Below, piece after piece: positions 8,816-19,114 of a stretch of DNA of 38,954 nt. A program made the position numbers and the translations under genes. Source of the stretch: Tannerella sp. GTDB lineage: Bacteria > Bacteroidota > Bacteroidia > Bacteroidales > Tannerellaceae. The notes beneath the pieces are model-generated. The model had not been told where the DNA came from, searched no databases, and saw nothing but the letters and a program-made list of their open reading frames with translations. The DNA is taken from the NCBI RefSeq assembly GCF_030528505.1, contig NZ_JAUMYS010000026.1, positions 1 through 38,954 on the forward strand, read 5' to 3'. How positions within the stretch are numbered: the first letter of the stretch is position 1; each line of letters starts with the position of its first letter.

Positions 8816-11800
8816 TTATTTATACTCCTGCCAGCTCTTGATGGAGATGTCTTTTTCGGAGAGGTTACACATGGCGCGGATAAATGCGCTTGCCAGACGC
8901 GCATTCGTAATCAGCGGAATGTTATGATCGATCGCTGCGCGACGTATTTTGTAGCCGTTGGTCAGCTCCCGTCTCGTGTGATTTTTCGGGATATTGATGA
9001 CCAAATCGAAGGCATGACGGCTGAACATTTCGATGATGTTCAGTTCTCCGCCGTCTTCGTCGGGCCAGCAGACCGGTGTAGCCCGGATGCCGTTGTCGTT
9101 CAGGAAGCGGGCGGTTCCTTGCGTGGCGTAGATGGTATATCCTTTCGTTTCGAGCAAGAGACAGGGTTCCAACAGATCGACTTTACTTTTGGCACCACCC
9201 GAAGAAACCATGATATTCTTTTGCGGAATCGTATTGCCGACAGCGATCATGGCCGAGAGCAGTGCCTCGTCGAAATCGTCGCCGATACATCCTACTTCGC
9301 CCGTCGAACTCATATCTACGCCCAGCACGGGATCGGCTTTCGAGAGTCGGCCGAACGAGAACTGCGATGCCTTAACTCCGATCCAGTCGATGTCGAACTC
9401 CGTCTTGTCGGGACGGTTGAAGGGCGCGTCGAGCATGATGCGGGTTGCCGTGTCGATAAAGTTTTGTTTCAGTACTTTCGATACGAACGGGAAGCTGCGC
9501 GAGGCGCGTAGATTACATTCGATTACTTTCACGTCGTTGTTCTTGGCCAGATACTGGATATTGAACGGTCCGCTGATGTTAAGCTCCTTGGCTATCTTAC
9601 GGCTGATTTTCTTGATGCGTCGTGCCGTCTCGAAGTAGATTTTCTGTGCAGGGAATACGAGTGTGGCATCGCCCGAATGGACGCCGGCAAACTCGATATG
9701 CTCCGAAATCGCGTACTCTACGATCTCGCCGTTCTGTGCCACGGCGTCGAATTCGATCTCTTTGGCATCCTGCAAAAATTCCGACACGACTACCGGATAC
9801 TCTTTCGATACCTGAGCGGCGATGTTCAGAAATTCGATCATCTGTTCTTTCGTGTGACAGACGTTCATAGCCGCACCACTCAGTACATACGAGGGACGGA
9901 TCAGGATGGGGAAGCCTACTTCGCGGATGAATGCGTCGATTTCGTCCATGCTGGTCAACTCCGCCCAGCGCGGCTGATCGATGCCGAGCGTGTCGAGCAT
10001 GGCCGAGAATTTGTGCCGGTTTTCGGCACGGTCGATCGATACGGGCGAAGTGCCGAGGATGGGTACCTGTTGCCGGTATAACTTCATAGCGAGGTTATTC
10101 GGGATCTGTCCGCCGACCGATACGATCACACCTCTGGGCTGCTCCAAATCGACCACGTCGAGTACGCGTTCGAGCGACAGCTCGTCGAAATACAGCCGGT
10201 CGCACATGTCGTAGTCCGTCGAAACCGTTTCGGGGTTATAATTGATCATGATCGATTTATAGCCGAGGTTGCGCGCCGTCTGCGCCGCGTTGACCGAGCA
10301 CCAGTCGAACTCGACGGACGAGCCGATGCGGTACGCGCCCGACCCGAGGATGATCACGCTCTTGTCATGCTTATAATAAGGAATATCGTGCTCCGTGCCG
10401 TCGTACGTCATATAGAGGTAGTTCGTCAGTTCGGGATGTTCCGAGGCAACGGTGTAGATGCGTTTCACGCTGGGCAGGATGCCGAGCTTCTTACGCCATG
10501 CCCGTACGCGGAGGTTGCCTTTTTCCATGTTGTCGTTCGGTTGTTCGACGAAGCGGGCAATCTGGAAATCGGAGAATCCGAGTCGTTTGGCTTCGCGCAG
10601 CACTTCGGCCGGCAGGTCTTCGATGCGGTCGTATTGCTTCAGAACACCGCTGTAATCTACGATATTTTTCAGTTTATGCAGGAACCACGGACTGATTTTC
10701 GTCAGTTCGTGAATGCGGTCGATCGTATATCCTTTTTCTAACGCCTGCGCTACGGCAAAGATACGCAGATCGGTCGGGTTCTCCAGCTCGTCGTCGAGAT
10801 TCTCGAACGTGAGGTTGTTGTTGCCTACGAATCCGTGCATCCCCTGTCCGATCATACGCAGACCTTTCTGCATAATCTCTTCGAACGATTTGCCGATCGA
10901 CATGATTTCGCCGACCGATTTCATGCTTGAGCCGATCTGACGGCTCACCCCCGCAAATTTCGTCAAGTCCCAGCGTGGAATTTTAGCGATGATATAGTCG
11001 ACTTCGGGGGCTTTATAGGCCGAATTCTGTGTGCCCATCTCGCCGATCTGGTCAAGCGAGTAGCCGAGTGCCAGCTTGGCTGCCACAAAGGCCAGCGGGT
11101 AACCGCTCGCTTTCGAGGCTAAGGCCGATGAGCGGCTCAGGCGTGCATTCACTTCGATAATTCGATAGTCGCCCGTCTCGGAGCTGTAGGCATATTGAAT
11201 GTTACACTCGCCCACAATGTTCAGGTGACGGACGGCCTTAACCGAGATCTCCTGCAACATCTTTACCTCGTCGTCGCGGAGCGAACAAGTCGGCGCTACC
11301 ACGATGCTCTCGCCGGTATGTACTCCTAACGGATCGACGTTCTCCATGCTTACGACGGTGAAGCAGTGGTCATTTTTGTCGCGGATCACCTCGAACTCGA
11401 TTTCTTTCCAGCCTTTCAGCGATTCTTCGACCAGAATCTGCGAAGCAAACGTAAAGGCGCTTTCGGCCAGGGTGCGCAGTTCGCTTTCCGTTTTGCAGAT
11501 GCCGCTTCCCTGACCGCCCAAGGCATACGCTGAACGGATCATCACCGGGTAGCCGATCTCTTCGGCTGCGCGGATTGCATCGGCCATCGTTTCCACGGCC
11601 TGACTGACGGGCGTCTTCAAGTCAACCTGATTCAGTTTCTTGACGAACAAGTCACGATCTTCCGTGTCCATGATTGCTTCGACCGATGTTCCCAACACTT
11701 TTACGCCGTATTTGCTGAGCGTACCGTCGTTATACAGTTGCGTACCGCAGTTCAGCGCCGTTTGTCCGCCGAAGGCCAGCAGAATCCCGTCGGGCTGTTC

Positions 11801-12037
11801 TTTCTTGATCACCTCTTCGACAAAAAAAGGCGTTACGGGAAGGAAATAAACCTTATCCGCAATGCCTTCCGACGTCTGAATCGTTGCGATATTTGGATTG
11901 ATCAACACCGATCGGATGCCGTCTTGGCGTAAGGCTTTCAGCGCCTGCGATCCGGAATAATCAAATTCGCCGGCTTGCCCGATTTTAAGGGCGCCGGAGC
12001 CTAACACGAGTACTTTGTTAATGTTATTCTTTGACAT
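8816..12037 (-). CDS. carB: carbamoyl-phosphate synthase large subunit
   Basis: CarB makes carbamoyl phosphate from bicarbonate, ammonia (delivered from glutamine by CarA) and two ATP, feeding arginine and pyrimidine synthesis. The 1073-residue product has the normal two-half plan. There is an N-terminal ATP-grasp half (VLGSGALKIGQAGEFDYSG at the start, ATP-grasp core about 130-320) and an oligomerisation middle. The second ATP-grasp half restarts near residue 556 (VIILGSGAYRIGSSVEFDW), and a C-terminal MGS-like allosteric domain runs from about 940 to the end. carA is not in this window. Upstream on the same strand the coiled-coil gene ends 39 bases before its ATG, so carB may share the helicase operon's transcript. 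I saw no convincing promoter in the 39-base gap. Confidence 0.96.
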   Translation of the reverse strand: MSKNNINKVLVLGSGALKIGQAGEFDYSGSQALKALRQDGIRSVLINPNIATIQTSEGIADKVYFLPVTPFFVEEVIKKEQPDGILLAFGGQTALNCGTQLYNDGTLSKYGVKVLGTSVEAIMDTEDRDLFVKKLNQVDLKTPVSQAVETMADAIRAAEEIGYPVMIRSAYALGGQGSGICKTESELRTLAESAFTFASQILVEESLKGWKEIEFEVIRDKNDHCFTVVSMENVDPLGVHTGESIVVAPTCSLRDDEVKMLQEISVKAVRHLNIVGECNIQYAYSSETGDYRIIEVNARLSRSSALASKASGYPLAFVAAKLALGYSLDQIGEMGTQNSAYKAPEVDYIIAKIPRWDLTKFAGVSRQIGSSMKSVGEIMSIGKSFEEIMQKGLRMIGQGMHGFVGNNNLTFENLDDELENPTDLRIFAVAQALEKGYTIDRIHELTKISPWFLHKLKNIVDYSGVLKQYDRIEDLPAEVLREAKRLGFSDFQIARFVEQPNDNMEKGNLRVRAWRKKLGILPSVKRIYTVASEHPELTNYLYMTYDGTEHDIPYYKHDKSVIILGSGAYRIGSSVEFDWCSVNAAQTARNLGYKSIMINYNPETVSTDYDMCDRLYFDELSLERVLDVVDLEQPRGVIVSVGGQIPNNLAMKLYRQQVPILGTSPVSIDRAENRHKFSAMLDTLGIDQPRWAELTSMDEIDAFIREVGFPILIRPSYVLSGAAMNVCHTKEQMIEFLNIAAQVSKEYPVVVSEFLQDAKEIEFDAVAQNGEIVEYAISEHIEFAGVHSGDATLVFPAQKIYFETARRIKKISRKIAKELNISGPFNIQYLAKNNDVKVIECNLRASRSFPFVSKVLKQNFIDTATRIMLDAPFNRPDKTEFDIDWIGVKASQFSFGRLSKADPVLGVDMSSTGEVGCIGDDFDEALLSAMIAVGNTIPQKNIMVSSGGAKSKVDLLEPCLLLETKGYTIYATQGTARFLNDNGIRATPVCWPDEDGGELNIIEMFSRHAFDLVINIPKNHTRRELTNGYKIRRAAIDHNIPLITNARLASAFIRAMCNLSEKDISIKSWQEYK

Positions 12038-12076
12038 AAATAGTTATTTTATTTGAGTTTCATTTTTGAATACACA

Positions 12077-12805
12077 TTATTTGAGAACGAACATCAGAAA
12101 GATGGCAATGAGCAGAAGCACCCAGGTAATGAGCTGGTTCCTTCTGACCTTGTCCATTTCGCTGCGGAGCTCTTCGCGCTGTATATCTTGCCGTTGCTCC
12201 AATTGATCGATTTGTTTCCCGATCGACAGCACCTGACTCGATAAATCGAGTTCGGACAGTTTATCGATGAGGGTCTGAATACGGTTGCAATACTCCGAGA
12301 TGGATTCGATCGTTTCCGAAATTTCGGTTTGTTGCACCTCAATGGCCTCGGTCGAGACGGTTGTCAACTCCTGGAGTGCACCGCTCGAAGCGGCAGTTAC
12401 CGCTTCGATGTTTTTTCGTGCCGAGTCGTTGACCTCGTCCAATGTTCGGACCGTTGCTTCCAACGCCTGCTGCAACGTTTTCTCCACCTCGGTTTTTAAC
12501 TGTGTCGTGGCTTGCTGTGACTGAGCAATTTCGGCCGCGAACAATTCTTTCCCTTCGCTGATCACGTTGGTCAGTCCCGCCTGCGACTCGTTAAGCCGAT
12601 CTTCAAACCGGGTGATGACCGTCTGCGTTTCTTCGCTAATTTTTTCGGCCAACTGCCGGACGTCTTCCGCCAAACGGGCTGTCGCATCGACTACTTCTTT
12701 ACTTTCTGCCGTCACTTGCGATACTTGCTCGCGGGCCGAGTTGAGGTGGGTCAAGCTGTCGCGGAGTTGCAGCAACGCTTTATGGATATTTTCTATTGCT
12801 TCCAT
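12077..12805 (-). CDS. tail-anchored coiled-coil protein
   Basis: I do not recognise this 242-residue protein. It is almost entirely helical and rich in Glu, Gln, Ala, Thr and Ser with clear heptads, for example around KEVVDATARLAEDVRQLAEK and ELFAAEIAQSQQATTQLK. It ends in one hydrophobic segment (about 224-241, LITWVLLLIAIFLMFVL), so it should be anchored in the inner membrane by its tail with the coiled coil in the cytoplasm. The pattern of short polar heptads recalls signalling domains of methyl-accepting proteins, but there is no glutamine/glutamate methylation hairpin I can assign. Its start overlaps the end of the large helicase-like gene by 13 bases, which implies translational coupling and a joint function. 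Confidence 0.75.
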   Translation of the reverse strand: MEAIENIHKALLQLRDSLTHLNSAREQVSQVTAESKEVVDATARLAEDVRQLAEKISEETQTVITRFEDRLNESQAGLTNVISEGKELFAAEIAQSQQATTQLKTEVEKTLQQALEATVRTLDEVNDSARKNIEAVTAASSGALQELTTVSTEAIEVQQTEISETIESISEYCNRIQTLIDKLSELDLSSQVLSIGKQIDQLEQRQDIQREELRSEMDKVRRNQLITWVLLLIAIFLMFVLK

Positions 12806-15800
12806 TCTTCCAGATATTTATGTTGTATCATCTTCGTTTGCGCCAGATGGAGGTTGAGGATGTCGGCAGCGCGCATAATATCGATACGTGTCCGCACTTC
12901 TTCCGTCCAGTCTCCGGTAGTGGCGAAATAGTCCGTCTCGCCTCGTATATAACAATTATACGCGTCAAACAGTTCTCGGAAATCAGCCATATCCGGCATC
13001 GAACGGTAAAATCCGATCATGCCGTTTTCATAACTTTCATGCAAATCGCATTCGAGCATCTCTTTTTCGTCCGTGCCGGTATAGAAGAGGCAAAAAGCGT
13101 TGAGCAGCGAAAGCGTTGAGTTGCTTCCTTCGAATGAGCGACGTAGCGTTCGTACGGCTTCATGCAGCTCTCTGGCTCGACTGTTGGGCGATCCGTTTCG
13201 CTCCGTCTCCTCGTCTTTAATCCGCTGCATATAACGGAATAAAATGTCTTTGTTCGACTCTCGGCCGTTCTCCGTATCTTTAGCCAGATGGTAGGCAAGG
13301 GAGTGGCTTTTGCCGGGGGATGTATCGTCAATCTCCGCTTGTGGTTGCGCAATACGCTGATAGACAAATTCCGTCATGTAAAGAAGACAACGGCATAATT
13401 CTTCACGAAGGGCGTCGTGGAAGGTTGTCTTGCGCGAAAGATTGCCTGCCTTGATCATCTCTTGCTCTGCGCGTTTCTTCGTGTAGTAGCGAAGAAAATA
13501 ATTACGTAACTGCCCGTAATACCCCCCGGTTGGTCTTTTTCGAAGGATGATGCGGTATCGTTGTTGTGCGTCGTCGCGGGTGATCTCGTCTATCAGTCCG
13601 AGGGTGCTCATGCGGTAGAGCGCTTTGGCGTAGAGTACAGACACGTTCTTTCCGGGTGTGTCATGCTTTGGGTTCTCGTGCTGTGGGGCGGGATACGGCA
13701 GGAAAAGGATACGCTCGTCCGGCAAATTCTCGAGTGTGAGCGGGAAATAACATCCTTTGGCCGGTACCGTATGTTGTCCTTCGAAACAAGTGATATCGGC
13801 ATAGCCAATCAGTTGCTCAATACATTCACGTTCGGCATCGAGGCCGCAGAAATGACGGAGGAAACGCTCTTTCCGAGAGGTCGATTCGGGTAGCCCTGCG
13901 CTCTTGCATAATACGATCCGATCCCGGTCTGTCAGCCATGTATCGTTGGGCAAAAGCGCCTGTTCGATATCGAACAGCATATCGAACGATGCCTGTTCGG
14001 TCAATCCCAAGAGTGTTATTTCTCCCTGTCGAGGCAGGGCGTAGCGATAGAGCATCTTCCCTGCCAGCAGTGAAGCGGGCAGAAAGTCGGGGCTCCATTC
14101 GGTGAGGCACTGCGCCTCGTCGAGGATGCCTGTAGCGAAGTATACGCCTGTCTGCTTCATATACCCGAAGCGTTGCAGAAGCGGGAGTCGGCCGAGCTGG
14201 TCGTAGGAGAGTACAATGATCAACGCTTCGGACGACTCTACCAGCCGTTCGCGCCGTTCGCGCTCAGTACGGTTGAGGCCGGTGTGGAGCACGGTCACAC
14301 AGTCGATGCCTGCATCGTGTAATTCGTTCCGGAGTGCTTGTGCGGCATCGGTGTCAGGCACGGCGACAAGCGTGATGCCGGGCTGCATCATCGCGGTTAG
14401 TTTGCGGATCACGGTTTTGCCACCATTCGTCGGTACAAGCCCAATGGTGTACCGGTTTTGAAGGATACGGCTCAGTACGGGTAACGTCCCCGGCATGAAA
14501 TCGTTTCTGCGCAAAAGCAGTTGCAAGAAGTAACGCAGGTGTTGTGAGGTTTCCGGTAAAGTTTCGTACTGCTCCTGTATGTTTTGGACGGTTAATGGGC
14601 GGTACGTAATGCGGCCGTTCGTATAGACACGGCGTGTGCTGCGTTCGTAGTGTGATGAGCGCACGTGGAAAAAACATTTATTCCGGCACTCCGTAAAGTC
14701 GGCAAACGAGATTTTTTCGATATCTGCCCGTCGCAGCATAGAGATGTCGATGATCAGATCGTACGTTTTTCGTCGCAGTTCCTCTGTTATTTCGGAGAAA
14801 GGTAAGGTGTCGCCATGCAGCGGCGAGTCGATAAATTCGGGCGTACTGACGACCGTCAGTTTCACATCGGGGAATCTCAGTCCCGTGTACTCCGTACTCA
14901 GCGCCGTGAGATGGTTGAAATGTTCTTTCAGATCGGCCAGAGCGAGTGCTGCACACGGCACATCGCGCTCAATGACGAGCACCGACCATGGTTCGCGTGC
15001 GATCTCGAGCCGGCGGGAGATGATAGCTTCGAGTACGATTTTCTGGATGCGTGCTACCGCTATCGGTGAGAGGACATATTGCAGTGTTCGTACCCAGTCG
15101 TCATCAAAACGTTTGTCAAAGACCTTGAAAACGGTTTCTACGTATTCGCTTCCGAGAAACCGGAAATGCGAATCGTTCATTTCTTCTTCCGGCACTTGGC
15201 GGCAATACCAATGAATGGCCGAGAGATCGTCGGCGCGTTGTTTGTCGGCACGCTTCTGCTCCATATCGGAATGATGGATCGACTCATGAATTTCGATGAC
15301 GCATCCGTCGTGTCGAAAATCTTTTGCGTCTTTGGTCGGGTAGGGGAACTCGCAAGCAAAATCGACTCGCTGCGTATGGGATGCTTTTTGTTTAGTCAGT
15401 GAATAGAGGTTGCGTTGCGGCTGCAAGAGCTGGCGTAGCGGTTGCGGAGCCATCCGGGTAATGAACGTCTTTTCGGCATCGCTCTCGAGCAGCTTGCTGT
15501 TATAATTCGACTCGTCCAGAGTCAGGCGAGGATCGATGATGTGCAACGCATCGAACACATCTTCGGTGTGTAATCCGCGTGTGTCGTAGCGGATCGTTCC
15601 GTCGAGGTCGACGCGGCGGTTGCCCAACTCCGCAAAAGCTTCTTCGAGAAACGGACTGGCCTGTGTCGGCCGTCCGCGGGTCACGATGTTATTTAGTATG
15701 GCAAACAGAGGATGTACATTTTCGCGTGCGCATCCGCCGAGGTCATAATGAGCCGATACTTCGAAGCGTGCGAGGCTTCGGTAGAGTGCCTCGGTTTTTT

Positions 15801-16638
15801 CCGAATCGGCCGTTTGAAGCGCTTGCTTCACCGCGTCCAGCCTGTAGGCGGCGTGGTATTGCACTGCCGGATAGTAATTGACATACTTGAGGTTGAAGTT
15901 GCTGTCCTCGAGCTTGAAGGCTTTGATCTTGAATCCGTGTGGTTGGCGGACATTCGGATACAGTTCCTCGTCGGCTAACGTTTCGGGCGAGTCGAAGTAA
16001 TGGTAGAATGCATCGATGCGTCGGTTGCTGTGAACGAGGTTACCGATACAGAAGAAATAATGTTTGCCGTGTATGCCGTATCCGACGAGTTCAGCAATGC
16101 GCTTGAGATCGAGTGTCGGCTGGTCAAGTACATCCGTAAAGAAATGAAACGTAATCGGTTGTCGAGTTTCAATTTCTTTCTTCCGGACTTCGCTTACCGG
16201 CTTACAAACACTACAAATCCGGTCAGGGTCGTCTATGTAGGGGCTAATGTGCCAGACGGCACGTTCGAGGGCTTCGGGCGAGGAATCGATGAGCGTGACT
16301 TTGCGCACGCGGTTTTCGATACCGTTCTTTTTAAGGAAGTCGAAGAAACAAACCGTATGGAGCCCTTGGCCGCATTGCCAGTCGATGATTTCGAATACAT
16401 CGTCCTGAAAGATTTTGCGAGGGATGGTTTCGAGTGTTTTATCGATTTTGGTTTTGCGTAAAGGGCCGTTATCGTAGAGGTCTGTGAGCATGTGTCGGTC
16501 GCGGTCGGGGAGAGAGGAAGAAGCGGAAATGGGGCCGGCTTTATCCGTAGCAGGGATAAAGTTTCGGGCGATCGCCCATATTTTCTCGAAAGACGGATTG
16601 CGCAGCCGGCGCAGACTTTCTCTATACGATATCATCAT
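12793..16638 (-). CDS. large multidomain protein with RecQ-like SF2 ATPase motifs
   Basis: This is a 1281-residue protein I cannot name. Residues about 78-130 look like a Rossmann methyltransferase-like unit (IIDWQCGQGLHTV, then LIDSSPEAL). Residues about 424-460 contain an acidic/His cluster (FACEFPYPT, DGCVIEIHES) that could be a degenerate PD-(D/E)XK nuclease. Residues 725-900 carry RecQ-like superfamily 2 motifs: Walker A GLVPTNGGKT (733-742), DEAQ (840-843) in ILDEAQCLTEWSPDF, and GLTEQAS (878-884) at the motif III site. I see no second RecA domain (no motif V/VI such as QxxGRxxR) in the last 380 residues, which are helical and charged. The coiled-coil gene overlaps its 3' end. The domain calls before 725 are tentative. 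A DNA-directed, possibly defensive, role is inference. Confidence 0.7.
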   Translation of the reverse strand: MMISYRESLRRLRNPSFEKIWAIARNFIPATDKAGPISASSSLPDRDRHMLTDLYDNGPLRKTKIDKTLETIPRKIFQDDVFEIIDWQCGQGLHTVCFFDFLKKNGIENRVRKVTLIDSSPEALERAVWHISPYIDDPDRICSVCKPVSEVRKKEIETRQPITFHFFTDVLDQPTLDLKRIAELVGYGIHGKHYFFCIGNLVHSNRRIDAFYHYFDSPETLADEELYPNVRQPHGFKIKAFKLEDSNFNLKYVNYYPAVQYHAAYRLDAVKQALQTADSEKTEALYRSLARFEVSAHYDLGGCARENVHPLFAILNNIVTRGRPTQASPFLEEAFAELGNRRVDLDGTIRYDTRGLHTEDVFDALHIIDPRLTLDESNYNSKLLESDAEKTFITRMAPQPLRQLLQPQRNLYSLTKQKASHTQRVDFACEFPYPTKDAKDFRHDGCVIEIHESIHHSDMEQKRADKQRADDLSAIHWYCRQVPEEEMNDSHFRFLGSEYVETVFKVFDKRFDDDWVRTLQYVLSPIAVARIQKIVLEAIISRRLEIAREPWSVLVIERDVPCAALALADLKEHFNHLTALSTEYTGLRFPDVKLTVVSTPEFIDSPLHGDTLPFSEITEELRRKTYDLIIDISMLRRADIEKISFADFTECRNKCFFHVRSSHYERSTRRVYTNGRITYRPLTVQNIQEQYETLPETSQHLRYFLQLLLRRNDFMPGTLPVLSRILQNRYTIGLVPTNGGKTVIRKLTAMMQPGITLVAVPDTDAAQALRNELHDAGIDCVTVLHTGLNRTERERRERLVESSEALIIVLSYDQLGRLPLLQRFGYMKQTGVYFATGILDEAQCLTEWSPDFLPASLLAGKMLYRYALPRQGEITLLGLTEQASFDMLFDIEQALLPNDTWLTDRDRIVLCKSAGLPESTSRKERFLRHFCGLDAERECIEQLIGYADITCFEGQHTVPAKGCYFPLTLENLPDERILFLPYPAPQHENPKHDTPGKNVSVLYAKALYRMSTLGLIDEITRDDAQQRYRIILRKRPTGGYYGQLRNYFLRYYTKKRAEQEMIKAGNLSRKTTFHDALREELCRCLLYMTEFVYQRIAQPQAEIDDTSPGKSHSLAYHLAKDTENGRESNKDILFRYMQRIKDEETERNGSPNSRARELHEAVRTLRRSFEGSNSTLSLLNAFCLFYTGTDEKEMLECDLHESYENGMIGFYRSMPDMADFRELFDAYNCYIRGETDYFATTGDWTEEVRTRIDIMRAADILNLHLAQTKMIQHKYLEEWKQ

Positions 16639-16750
16639 ATTGTAGTAATAGTCAGACGAAATTTCTACGATGTATAATCAAGGAGCGTCGGTCGTATCCA
16701 ACGGCCTTGCGAGGGACTCTTCGGCTTGTCGCCGTTCCCGGGCGGCTTCT

Positions 16751-16785
16751 CTGACCTGTCAGTCCCTTTTTGGCTGACAAAGCTA
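16751..16785 (-). promoter_or_regulatory. -7 element with overlapping inverted repeats upstream of the helicase operon
   Basis: On the - strand TAGCTTTG at 16785-16778 matches TAnnTTTG exactly. The predicted start region carries three alternating arms: CTGAC (16774-16778), GTCAG (16758-16762) and CTGAC (16751-16755). These can form two mutually exclusive hairpins. The arms could be an operator or a 5' leader structure. No clear -33 element was found. The 214-base gap 16639-16852 holds nothing else I recognise apart from a 7-bp hairpin at 16811-16838. Confidence 0.4.
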
Positions 16786-16852
16786 AACAAATATTTTTTC
16801 TTATCCGTCCCGTGTTGCCGAAATTATTTTTCAACACGAAGATTTATTGTGT

Positions 16853-19114
16853 TCAGAGAGGTTCACCTTCACTCAGACGAATGACTTTGCGGTGCTCACC
16901 CACGATCCATACGATATCTCCTTCTTCGAAGACGGTCGAGGGCGGCGGGTTTTTGATCGACGTTTTACCGCGCTCAATACCGATAACGAGGCATTGCGCT
17001 TTATCGCGAATACCCGATTCACGGATAGAGAGGCCGATGAGTTGCGAGCCTTCGGCAATGGTGAATTGTTCGATGTTCATCTCGTCGGCTTCTTCTTCGC
17101 GTCGTTTCCGGTCGGCTTGTTGATAACGTTCGGCGATGTAGTCGTGGAAATGCTGGATGTCATCATCCGACCCGACGACGATGAGTTTGTCGAGCGGATA
17201 GAGGCGTTCGTCTCCTCCGGGGATGTTGATACGTCGTTCGCCCCGTATGATCGTAACGATGTTCACGTTGCATTTTTGTCGGAAGTTCAGTTCCTTGAGT
17301 GTCTTTCCGATGCTGGGTGAGTGGGGGCGCACCTCAATGTCTGTCAGGTGCAGGTCTCGTTCCAGCAGGTGATTGGCGAATTCGCGCCGAATAGGGGCGC
17401 GCCGTTCGCTTTCGGCCTCGCGTGCCGAGAGGTTGCTGACGAAGTGGCGTTCCATGCGGATAGAATGTTTCTTGACGCGTTTGGAAAAGAGCATAATGGC
17501 GATGACGCTCAGCGAAGCGACGAGTACGATCCCCCATTTGGTGCTGAGCAAAGCCGAGGTGGGGATGGCCACGAGGCCCATGGATACGATGATGCGCAGT
17601 ACGATGAGCGAGACTAAGGGGCCACGGTTGTATTTGCTGTCGTTCCAGAGGTGTCGGAAGGCTTGCGAGCGGTTTTTCTTCATCATGATGGCACGCAGGA
17701 GTGGAGCCATCAAGGCTATAAGCAAGACGAGTGCGACAAGGTTTCCGTTCTGTCCGGGCAGGAGTTGCCGGATGAGTGGCGCCACGAATTGCAGCCAGAC
17801 AAAAATCAGAACGAGTGTTACGGCCAGATAAATTCCTACGATACGGCTCATGGAACGCAGGTATTTTTTCCATTCGCTCTGATGGCGGATGGTGTTGGAA
17901 CCGGATGTATATTGCTCCAAAAATTGTTTCCACGACGGCGGTAACGAGCGATCAATCCCTTTATATGCCGGTTCGGCCAGTCGGATCATGTATGGCGTGA
18001 AGAAAGTCGTTACTACCGAAACGGCCACGATCAGTGGGTAGAGATGCGGCTCCATGACTTTGAGTGCGATGCCTTGTGAGGCGATGATAAAGGCGAATTC
18101 GCCGATCTGCGTGAGCGAAAAACCACTCTGTATGGCCGTCTTGATGGGTTTGCCCGAAAGTACCACACCGAAGCTGCCGAATAACAGCTGTCCGCCCATG
18201 ACTACAACGGTCAGCGCTGCCACGTGCCACTTGTATTCCCACAGAATATTCAGGTCGATCAACATCCCGACCGACACGAAGAAAACGGCCGCAAACAAAT
18301 CTTTAACCGGTTTGACGAGGCTTTCGATGTGCTCGGCCTCGATTGTCTCGGCCAAAATCGCACCCATCATGAATGCGCCTAATGCCGACGAGAAGCCGAT
18401 CCAGTCGGCGACGTAGACTAATCCCAGACAAAGCCCGATGCTGATGATGAGCAACATCTCATCGTTGAGGAACTTTTTCAGCGCTTTGAGCATGGAAGGA
18501 ATGAAGTAGATTCCGAAAACGAAACATCCAACGAGGAAAAGCGCCAGCTTCGTCATGCTCAGCAAAAGTTCTTGTCCTTCAAACGTCTGACTTACTGCTA
18601 ACGTGGAGAGTAACACGAGCATCAGCACGGCAAAAATATCTTCGACGATCAGGATGCCGAACACTACACCCGCAAATTGTTTGTTGCGCAACCCCATCTC
18701 GTCGAAGGCTTTGAAAATAATTGTAGTCGAGGACATCGAGAGCATAGCTCCGAGGAAAATACAATTCATCCGGTCTAACCCGAAAGCTGTTCCCACGATG
18801 TATCCTGTTGTCATCATTCCGATAAGGACCGTCATCGCGCCTACGATAGCTGTCCCGCCTACTTTCATCAGTTTCTTGATACTGAAATCGAGGCCAAGGT
18901 TGAACAGCAGAAAGATGACTCCGATCTCCCCCCATGTGTTGATGTTGATCGTATCGGATACGGTAGGAAGGAACTGAATGGACGGCCCCGCCAATACACC
19001 CGCAAGGATATAGCCCAATACCACAGGTTGTTTGAGACGCTTGAACAAGAGGGTCATCAGACCGGCCGATATAATAATGACGACTAAGTCGGATATTAAT
19101 GTGGGTAAATGCAT
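16853..19114 (-). CDS. CPA2 cation:proton antiporter with two TrkA-C domains
   Basis: This is a 753-residue inner-membrane antiporter of the monovalent cation:proton antiporter-2 (KefB-like) family, exchanging K+ or Na+ for protons. The first 390 residues hold about 12 membrane segments with family stretches PVVLGYILAGVLAGP, FLLFNLGLDFS, SSTTIIFKAF and SLTQIGEFAFIIASQG. Further hydrophobic segments lie around 420-535. From about 590 two soluble TrkA-C-like ligand-binding domains follow: SIGKTLKELNFRQKCNVNIV with LIVVGSDDDI, and LIGLSIRESGIRD with EEGDIVWIVG. No TrkA-N (NAD) domain is seen. TATTTTTG at 19146-19139 on the - strand is a possible -7 element 24 bases upstream of the start. The exact ion cannot be told. 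Confidence 0.9.
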   Translation of the reverse strand: MHLPTLISDLVVIIISAGLMTLLFKRLKQPVVLGYILAGVLAGPSIQFLPTVSDTININTWGEIGVIFLLFNLGLDFSIKKLMKVGGTAIVGAMTVLIGMMTTGYIVGTAFGLDRMNCIFLGAMLSMSSTTIIFKAFDEMGLRNKQFAGVVFGILIVEDIFAVLMLVLLSTLAVSQTFEGQELLLSMTKLALFLVGCFVFGIYFIPSMLKALKKFLNDEMLLIISIGLCLGLVYVADWIGFSSALGAFMMGAILAETIEAEHIESLVKPVKDLFAAVFFVSVGMLIDLNILWEYKWHVAALTVVVMGGQLLFGSFGVVLSGKPIKTAIQSGFSLTQIGEFAFIIASQGIALKVMEPHLYPLIVAVSVVTTFFTPYMIRLAEPAYKGIDRSLPPSWKQFLEQYTSGSNTIRHQSEWKKYLRSMSRIVGIYLAVTLVLIFVWLQFVAPLIRQLLPGQNGNLVALVLLIALMAPLLRAIMMKKNRSQAFRHLWNDSKYNRGPLVSLIVLRIIVSMGLVAIPTSALLSTKWGIVLVASLSVIAIMLFSKRVKKHSIRMERHFVSNLSAREAESERRAPIRREFANHLLERDLHLTDIEVRPHSPSIGKTLKELNFRQKCNVNIVTIIRGERRINIPGGDERLYPLDKLIVVGSDDDIQHFHDYIAERYQQADRKRREEEADEMNIEQFTIAEGSQLIGLSIRESGIRDKAQCLVIGIERGKTSIKNPPPSTVFEEGDIVWIVGEHRKVIRLSEGEPL

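Follow-up and report, generated by a model that had tools for sequence, protein, structure and literature searches.

The stretch of DNA considered here (38,954 nucleotides of the forward strand of contig NZ_JAUMYS010000026.1, RefSeq assembly GCF_030528505.1 of Tannerella sp., called the window below) carries on its minus strand two overlapping genes, termed A and B. An earlier note, made from the sequence letters alone, had proposed them as an undescribed two-gene defence system consisting of a multidomain RecQ-like ATPase and a tail-anchored coiled-coil partner. Both open reading frames (ORFs) were found where the note had placed them, together with their overlap, and the ORF pair is kept in three other genomes of the genus, with an identical offset in loci L034 and L035 and with the genes directly abutting in genome G080. 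The description of B as a coiled-coil protein ending in one membrane helix was also confirmed, since the protein contains no proline and has one hydrophobic stretch, at the extreme C-terminus (best 19-residue mean 2.39, from residue 223). A kefB-like transporter gene lies upstream of A and carB lies downstream of B (names read from the sequence). The genes A, B and carB are consecutive (8816-16638, minus strand) and the B-carB gap is 21-44 nt in all four Tannerella loci, hence the three genes may form one operon. It had been stated that the overlap shows production of A and B together; their joint expression is likely, although the overlap is no proof of it. The spacer before carB was scanned with a sigma-70 consensus, which was not made for Bacteroidota. 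On the plus strand, gene B contains at 12385-12408 a nine-pair stem followed by Ts that resembles a terminator; the number of such sites, 8, is near the shuffled expectation of 5.9. Coordinates of all features are listed in Table 1.

Table 1. Features of the A-B locus in window coordinates; AF2, AlphaFold2; SAM, S-adenosylmethionine.
Feature	Position	Strand	Basis or remark
Gene A, 1281 aa: methyltransferase-like, nuclease-like, RecQ RecA1 remnant and C-terminal helical domain	12793..16638	minus	ORF, homologues
Class I SAM-methyltransferase-like domain, A residues 60-245, motif DWQCGQG	15904..16461	minus	AF2 and Foldseek, weak profile matches, Pfam
DUF559/PD-(D/E)XK-like region, A residues 421-510	15109..15378	minus	profile and Pfam matches
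Altered nuclease motif EIHESIHH (IEIDGxxH in relatives); Asp to His, residue 451	15271..15294	minus	alignment
RecQ RecA1 lobe, degenerate, A residues 701-905	13924..14538	minus	RecQ/DpdF matches, alignment
Motif I remnant LVPTNGGKT	14413..14439	minus	sequence
Motif II remnant DEAQ (DEAH/DEVH in 26 relatives)	14110..14121	minus	sequence, alignment
Missing RecA2 lobe (motifs V, VI), A residues 900-1003	13630..13941	minus	103 residues here vs 168-243 in 26 relatives
C-terminal helical domain common to relatives, A residues 1003-1281	12796..13632	minus	homologue alignment; AF2 confidence low
A stop region / B start overlap, 13 nt	12793..12805	minus	ORF coordinates
Gene B, 242 aa, coil-rich, single C-terminal membrane helix	12077..12805	minus	ORF, composition, hydropathy
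B membrane helix, residues ~222-241	12083..12142	minus	hydropathy
B-carB spacer, 39 nt	12038..12076	minus	consensus scan: no promoter- or terminator-like site

The methyltransferase-like fold proposed for the N-terminus of A is backed by structural and, weakly, by profile results. In the AF2 model, with a mean predicted local distance difference test score (pLDDT) of 54, residues ~61-250 exhibit a Rossmann-type alternation with ten-residue pLDDT means of 57-82. Foldseek gave for this domain 241 PDB matches at an expect value (E) <=1e-3 and among the 50 listed most are methyltransferases; the glycine-rich motif I (DWQCGQG) and the acidic end of strand 2 (LID) are present, at moderate model confidence. 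Profile matches to PDB sequences are all weak (YecO E 0.0086, MJ0882 0.025, a tRNA methyltransferase 0.35, followed by glycogen synthase at 0.36), and Pfam methyltransferase models matched up to five of 11 family members. SAM binding by this domain is thus a prediction from the model. One GRAS structure occurred among the Foldseek matches; a GRAS-like domain was rejected, as GRAS is missing from the 16 Pfam families listed, among which methyltransferases do appear. The nuclease-like middle, likewise anticipated, was recovered as a DUF559/PD-(D/E)XK-like region, for which the family profile matches the endonuclease-like structure 3hrl (E 6e-4) and PvuRts1I (0.008), with Pfam DUF559 above the cut-off in relative L119 and below it in L109. 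The RecA1 lobe of the window protein is matched by the RecQ model at E 2.7e-11, and the family profile reaches 5e-49 against RecQ structures. For residues 690-1281 the AF2 model (mean pLDDT 48.3) shows no confident fold of the C-terminal domain and was not used for fold claims.

What sets the Tannerella protein apart is the loss of the second helicase lobe. The set of A proteins comprises 30 members, i.e. four from Tannerella and 26 others from Bacteroidota, Rhodothermota, Escherichia coli and viral contigs. The gap between RecA1 and the C-terminal domain is 78-103 residues in the Tannerella copies in contrast to 168-243 in the 26 relatives. With the motifs named as in RecQ, motif VI is present in all 26 relatives and motif V in 25 (it is absent in G492), whereas both are missing in all four Tannerella copies, and Pfam Helicase_C, found in each of the five intact relatives scanned (L037, L105, L109, L119 and L082), was found in none of the four Tannerella proteins. 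An active helicase was rejected on account of the missing lobe and, because that lobe is absent in 4/4 copies, Tannerella A is not a plausible DNA-directed RecQ motor. The working DNA-directed RecQ ATPase of the earlier note has therefore to be given up, the more so as motif II is altered; the RecQ-like motifs I, II and III which it had listed do exist in the window protein, however in changed form (PTNGGKT, DEAQ and LGLTEQAS). In the window, L034, L035 and G080 motif I reads PTNGGKT, PANGSKT, PANGGKT and PTDAHGA, and motif II DEAQ, DEAQ, DEVQ and DSAE, respectively, which means that motif I is lost and motif II gone in G080. RecA1 is the best-conserved domain in four intact pairs (G198-G013 73%, G045-vL081 71%, vL081-G013 62%, G045-G013 62%). 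The identity of this lobe to that of G013 is 41% for the window, 42% for L035 and 37% for G080, and the corresponding values for the N-terminal domains are 49%, 46% and 38%.

The nuclease-like region is altered as well. In Vsr/DUF559-type enzymes the catalytic residues belong to a D...ExDGxxH motif. Three Tannerella copies carry IEIHExxxH at this place and G080 carries IEIEDPTVQ, so the first Asp and the Glu are retained and the second Asp is replaced by His in three copies and by Glu in G080. Judged from the missing lobe and these residues, the Tannerella lineage would have lost the helicase and probably the nuclease, and for its A protein DNA unwinding appears impossible and cutting unlikely.

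Despite this, both genes are preserved. The ratio of nonsynonymous to synonymous substitution rates (dN/dS, Nei-Gojobori; pairs in the order window-L034, window-L035, L034-L035) is 0.111, 0.137 and 0.123 for A and 0.084, 0.116 and 0.134 for B. Within A it amounts to 0.061, 0.057 and 0.028 in the methyltransferase-like domain, 0.099, 0.141 and 0.153 in RecA1, 0.165, 0.213 and 0.147 in the region of the missing lobe, and 0.142, 0.160 and 0.153 in the C-terminal domain. The 1281 codons of A are gap-free across the three species at synonymous divergence (dS) of 0.53-0.72, and G080, for which dN/dS comparisons are largely saturated, has an intact ORF at 49% identity. A pseudogene was rejected in view of the low dN/dS and the intact ORFs. 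Judged from their codons, strong purifying selection acts on both genes, which occupy one chromosomal site, and the most constrained parts of A are the methyltransferase-like domain and, what is harder to explain, the nuclease-like region. The stretch 16459-16950, containing the first 60 codons of A, much intergenic DNA and the kefB end, is near-identical to L034, whereas the rest of A is diverged (proportion of synonymous differences 0 vs 0.43 overall), and this contrast may reflect recombination or a constrained leader.

Relatives of A were collected from several sources. A search of 123 family genomes gave full-length relatives in the three other genus genomes (86, 82 and 49% identity), the first two of which, L034 and L035 (the same as G079 and G078 by coordinates), bear the name Tannerella forsythia in their deposited records. 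Five further genomes (G013, G045, G042, G037 and G111) contain intact-type relatives. With a profile of the nuclease-like region and linker, 30 of 392 phylum genomes were matched at E<=1e-8; the analysis was confined to the own genome and 16 strong matches (E<=6.7e-14), leaving out 13 that were weaker. Plasmid-derived relatives came from Haliscomenobacter, Salinibacter, Rhodothermus and E. coli (19 matches, four opened), G130 being the Rhodothermus plasmid again (A 100% identical) and counted once. Viral contigs added three full-length relatives (L081-L083; 23 viral loci matched, three counted), and a 602-aa RecQ-like ORF in viral locus L088 was left out of the count. G042, whose A is split over two contigs and is followed by its B, was left out of the pair count, and G369 ends at a contig edge, leaving 29 loci readable downstream. 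The intact homologues are composed of a DUF559/PD-(D/E)XK-like nuclease and a RecQ helicase.

A protein with a hydrophobic C-terminal tail is encoded 3' of A, within -50 to +102 nt, in 27 of the 29 loci (23 of 25 without Tannerella). When the tail had to be the sole hydrophobic stretch, 26 of 29 downstream proteins passed in comparison to one of 90 controls, i.e. other long genes of the same loci having a downstream ORF. The exceptions are G392 and G492, where the downstream protein has no tail, and G316, with a second hydrophobic stretch. Since the homologues are related, these are not independent events, and the contrast is strong but is given no p-value. The expectation that the two genes travel together is thus well supported and, on the sequences compared, A-B is a recurring pair defined by an adjacent coil-rich gene with a C-terminal membrane helix, even though overall identity of B proteins to the window copy is low (11-46%, 20 proteins). 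The sole control that passed is a 184-aa tail-anchored coil following a 1031-aa protein with weak AAA/UvrD matches, beside the Rhodothermus A-B pair (L049 12431-15526; L104 3501-7116). As this second pair adjoins A-B, tail-anchored coils may serve more than one helicase.

The N-terminal domain of A is exchangeable. It is methyltransferase-like in nine of 30 proteins (the four Tannerella copies included) and in G042, it consists in E. coli of a HAD-like part (label from annotation) and a phosphoribosyltransferase (PRTase)/ShosT-like part, and it is absent for example in Haliscomenobacter, Salinibacter, Rhodothermus and G111. Upstream of A a DUF1848-like gene is present in G013 and G037 (Pfam-confirmed) and in G045 and G042 (similarity by eye), and G198 has there a 2OG-Fe(II) oxygenase. 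Elsewhere the methyltransferase-like domain was noticed in a separate protein with Sel1 repeats (L043 2219-3595, G000:C28) and, in G111 (L045 5892-8162), together with BspA-type leucine-rich and Sel1-like repeats, both beside an ileS-like gene (by eye). Viral contig L156 (4858-8472) carries a DUF1848-like gene (by eye) and then an 836-aa fusion of this methyltransferase-like domain with a UvrD-like helicase (PADLOC NERD+UvrD, E 1e-31).

The link with defence, drawn earlier from architecture, is supported by the surroundings of several relatives, which lie beside type I restriction-modification (RM), MZA, BREX, Azaca or DISARM genes, are carried by plasmids, or belong to a prophage-like contig. 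The neighbours named here are examples among the relatives. In E. coli, relatives occur in seven of 5,426 genomes, three on chromosomes and four on plasmids, and two of the seven listings (H22, H27) include an insertion sequence element; each of the two chromosomal copies opened (of three) is flanked by a type I RM operon on one side and an MZA system on the other, and they are taken as one case because the arrangement is identical. In G198 the relative is bordered by Azaca matches (ZacA, ZacB and ZacC) and, at the opposite side, by BrxC, G419 has type I RM and a DrmD-like helicase nearby, the Haliscomenobacter relative DrmE, DrmA and DrmB, and the Salinibacter relative type I RM. In viral contig L081, which is prophage-like, the intact A-B pair lies near a terminase-like gene (read by eye). 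The loci of G416, G254, G446 and G165 contain mostly ordinary genes nearby (by eye) and the opened E. coli plasmid has plasmid genes around A-B.

In a maximum-likelihood tree of A residues 395-900 the four Tannerella copies group together (100/100), within a clade containing G013, G037 and G198 (100/99). G013, which has DUF1848 upstream, is nearest to the Tannerella clade, at a fork (93/74) that is not starred. The pair is located upstream of carB in four of the 30 carB loci read (31 genus genomes with a carB match; flank read <=1.5 kb), two of the 26 negatives, L143 and L154, having <250 nt of upstream DNA. DUF1848 is present in eight of 41 genus genomes, but all four that carry the pair lack it. 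The simplest history would be that a DUF1848-type module was captured upstream of carB, that RecA2 was lost before the G080 split, and that DUF1848 was lost as well. Against its own proposal the earlier note had set the picture of a core gene kept with carB, partnerless and never near defence loci; a chromosomal place before carB was indeed found in four species, and the other parts of that picture were not.

Comparison with named systems shows that the parent family is not new in every part, because its nuclease-helicase part is already in PADLOC as DpdF. That model (PDLC02868, 1078 positions) matches E. coli A at residues 471-1471 (1,001 residues; model 19-1002; E 8.2e-113), from which the nuclease-like region, RecQ and the C-terminal domain can be regarded as common to DpdF and the family, whereas window A is matched at residues 711-895 only (E 4.2e-12). 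The annotated genes around the opened relatives from E. coli, Salinibacter, Rhodothermus and Haliscomenobacter include none named dpdA, dpdB or dpdC; the window and its own genome were not searched for dpdA. DpdI matches window B at E 0.026 only and, when 20 B proteins are taken together, does not rank within the top 25 of the 76 families matched. Other PADLOC matches of B, to ZorA, LmuB, JetC and DruC, are read as low-complexity ones, being weak and scattered over unrelated coiled coils, and B as DpdI or ZorA was rejected.

Some likeness exists to RqlHI and PsyrTA, for the intact E. coli relative joins a RecQ core, a PRTase-like region and a DprA-like gene (PsyrT E 6.7e-61, PsyrA E 1.5e-28). 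RqlH has an N-terminal helicase and a C-terminal PRTase, and the covered part of its description names no nuclease-like region, the word 'coiled' being absent from that paper (PMC4670107). In Tannerella, A has no PRTase match and no DprA-like gene beside it. The E. coli neighbour also matches ShosA (E 6.8e-68) and E. coli A residues 254-358 match ShosT (E 1.5e-7); a DprA-PRTase system protects against phage, and shosTA is named as a related toxin-antitoxin system, according to the covered part of PMC9122126, however DprA and PRTase parts were not found in the Tannerella pair. In BREX type 3, BrxHII is described, in the part of the source covered, as a Swi2/Snf2 helicase with an inactive restriction endonuclease (REase) domain, proposed as a nucleotide sensor (PMC12839542). 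Like Tannerella A it is a helicase protein retaining a catalytically degenerate PD-(D/E)XK domain; unlike it, BrxHII is Swi2/Snf2 and not RecQ, and in Tannerella the helicase is dead too and a coil partner is present. The statement that no named system fits should thus be narrowed: it does not hold for the E. coli relative with its DpdF match, but the A-B pair itself was not found in the literature searched, where most subscription papers fall outside coverage, and no paper on DUF1848 was found in that search. Neither the tail-anchored partner as a named component nor the helicase-dead, selected Tannerella form was found in the libraries and literature searched.

We consider the chances about even that Tannerella has domesticated, in helicase-dead form, a defence-type module so far uncharacterised and putatively made of a DpdF-like nuclease-RecQ helicase and a tail-anchored coiled coil. 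In intact members B would oligomerise via its coil, be anchored through its tail in the inner membrane and dock A there, A would unwind and cut invading DNA, and the exchangeable N-terminal domain (methyltransferase-like, or HAD and PRTase with a ShosA/DprA-like gene in E. coli) would act as regulator or effector. Preservation of both genes despite the lost machinery suggests a new job in Tannerella. The leftover could be a membrane-tethered SAM-binding scaffold, perhaps binding ATP and nucleic acid without processing them. It would either have a sensing role or carry out a SAM-dependent modification; the methyltransferase-like domain would be the part most likely at work, and the nuclease-like fold may have been retained for binding. 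A sensing role for the doubly damaged A is reasonable, though unproven, because nucleotide sensing has been suggested for the dead REase domains of BREX helicases (PMC12839542, as far as covered).

Several observations weigh against such a domesticated, helicase-dead pair. The window copy still has the Walker A lysine and the first two residues (DE) of motif II, due to which its ATP binding is possible. In the nuclease-like region dN/dS is 0.053, 0.088 and 0.062, near that of the methyltransferase-like domain and lower in one pair, and with such constraint this region may still do something. Both A and B evolve faster than their neighbours carB (0.028-0.035) and kefB (0.029-0.033), and the first 60 codons of A show zero synonymous change between the window and L034, dN/dS being 0.74 and 0.52 for the two remaining pairs. 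The prediction of SAM binding comes from a model with a mean pLDDT of 54, with a Pfam methyltransferase match of the window copy at E 0.16 only, and the second half of A is without a usable structural model. No defence gene was seen adjoining the Tannerella pair. Finally, the pair was found in four genus species only, and 'domesticated' therefore rests on one lineage.

Other explanations fit parts of these data. Conservation of the pair, defence neighbours of some relatives and the GKT of motif I kept in the window copy would suit a fully active two-gene anti-phage system with A as its RecQ-type DNA motor, which is nevertheless very improbable when RecA2 with motifs V and VI is absent and the second nuclease Asp changed in all four Tannerella copies, and motifs I and II are altered. 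A decaying relic heading for loss would account for the missing RecA2 lobe and DUF1848 and for the altered catalytic residues, but dN/dS of 0.11-0.14 for A, its intact codons in three species at the dS given above and the intact G080 ORF leave hardly any likelihood to it.

It is also conceivable, though unlikely, that the dead A protects by interfering with others, its C-terminal domain and coil partner co-assembling with and poisoning intact A-B brought by phages or plasmids. Intact A-B does occur in the prophage-like contig L081 and on plasmids, and the Tannerella copy retains the partner and the C-terminal domain; this domain is, however, under weaker constraint (0.142-0.160) than the parts resembling a methyltransferase (0.028-0.061) and a nuclease (0.053-0.088), and with no intact A found in the own genome (G000, 91.6% complete) the opponent is hypothetical. 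That the pair is kept mainly for carrying transcription into carB agrees with the B-carB spacing in all four loci and with the spacer showing no promoter-like site in the sigma-70 scan, but it would explain the site and not the constraint at the protein level, and 26 of the 30 carB loci read show no pair upstream, two of them over <250 nt; we regard this explanation as quite improbable.

The preferred reading, a domesticated and helicase-dead pair, can be carried further, to a tentative picture which we hold possible rather than probable. A mobile nuclease-helicase defence module would have settled as a resident of the chromosome and be transcribed together with carB; the pair, tethered to the membrane and catalytically dead but able to bind SAM, would act as a pseudo-helicase in sensing or in a new methylation and not in the cutting of DNA. 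As the parent family one would have a widespread defence system still without a name, with the tail-anchored coil as its defining feature. Scattered annotations of 'RecQ family helicase' and 'hypothetical protein' are here joined into one recurring pair whose partner protein is membrane-anchored, and the intact three-gene version of E. coli is open to direct testing in laboratory strains. The Tannerella form offers a clear case of a defence-type enzyme that is without its motor and probably without its nuclease and is yet conserved, and thus a natural test of the remaining domains.

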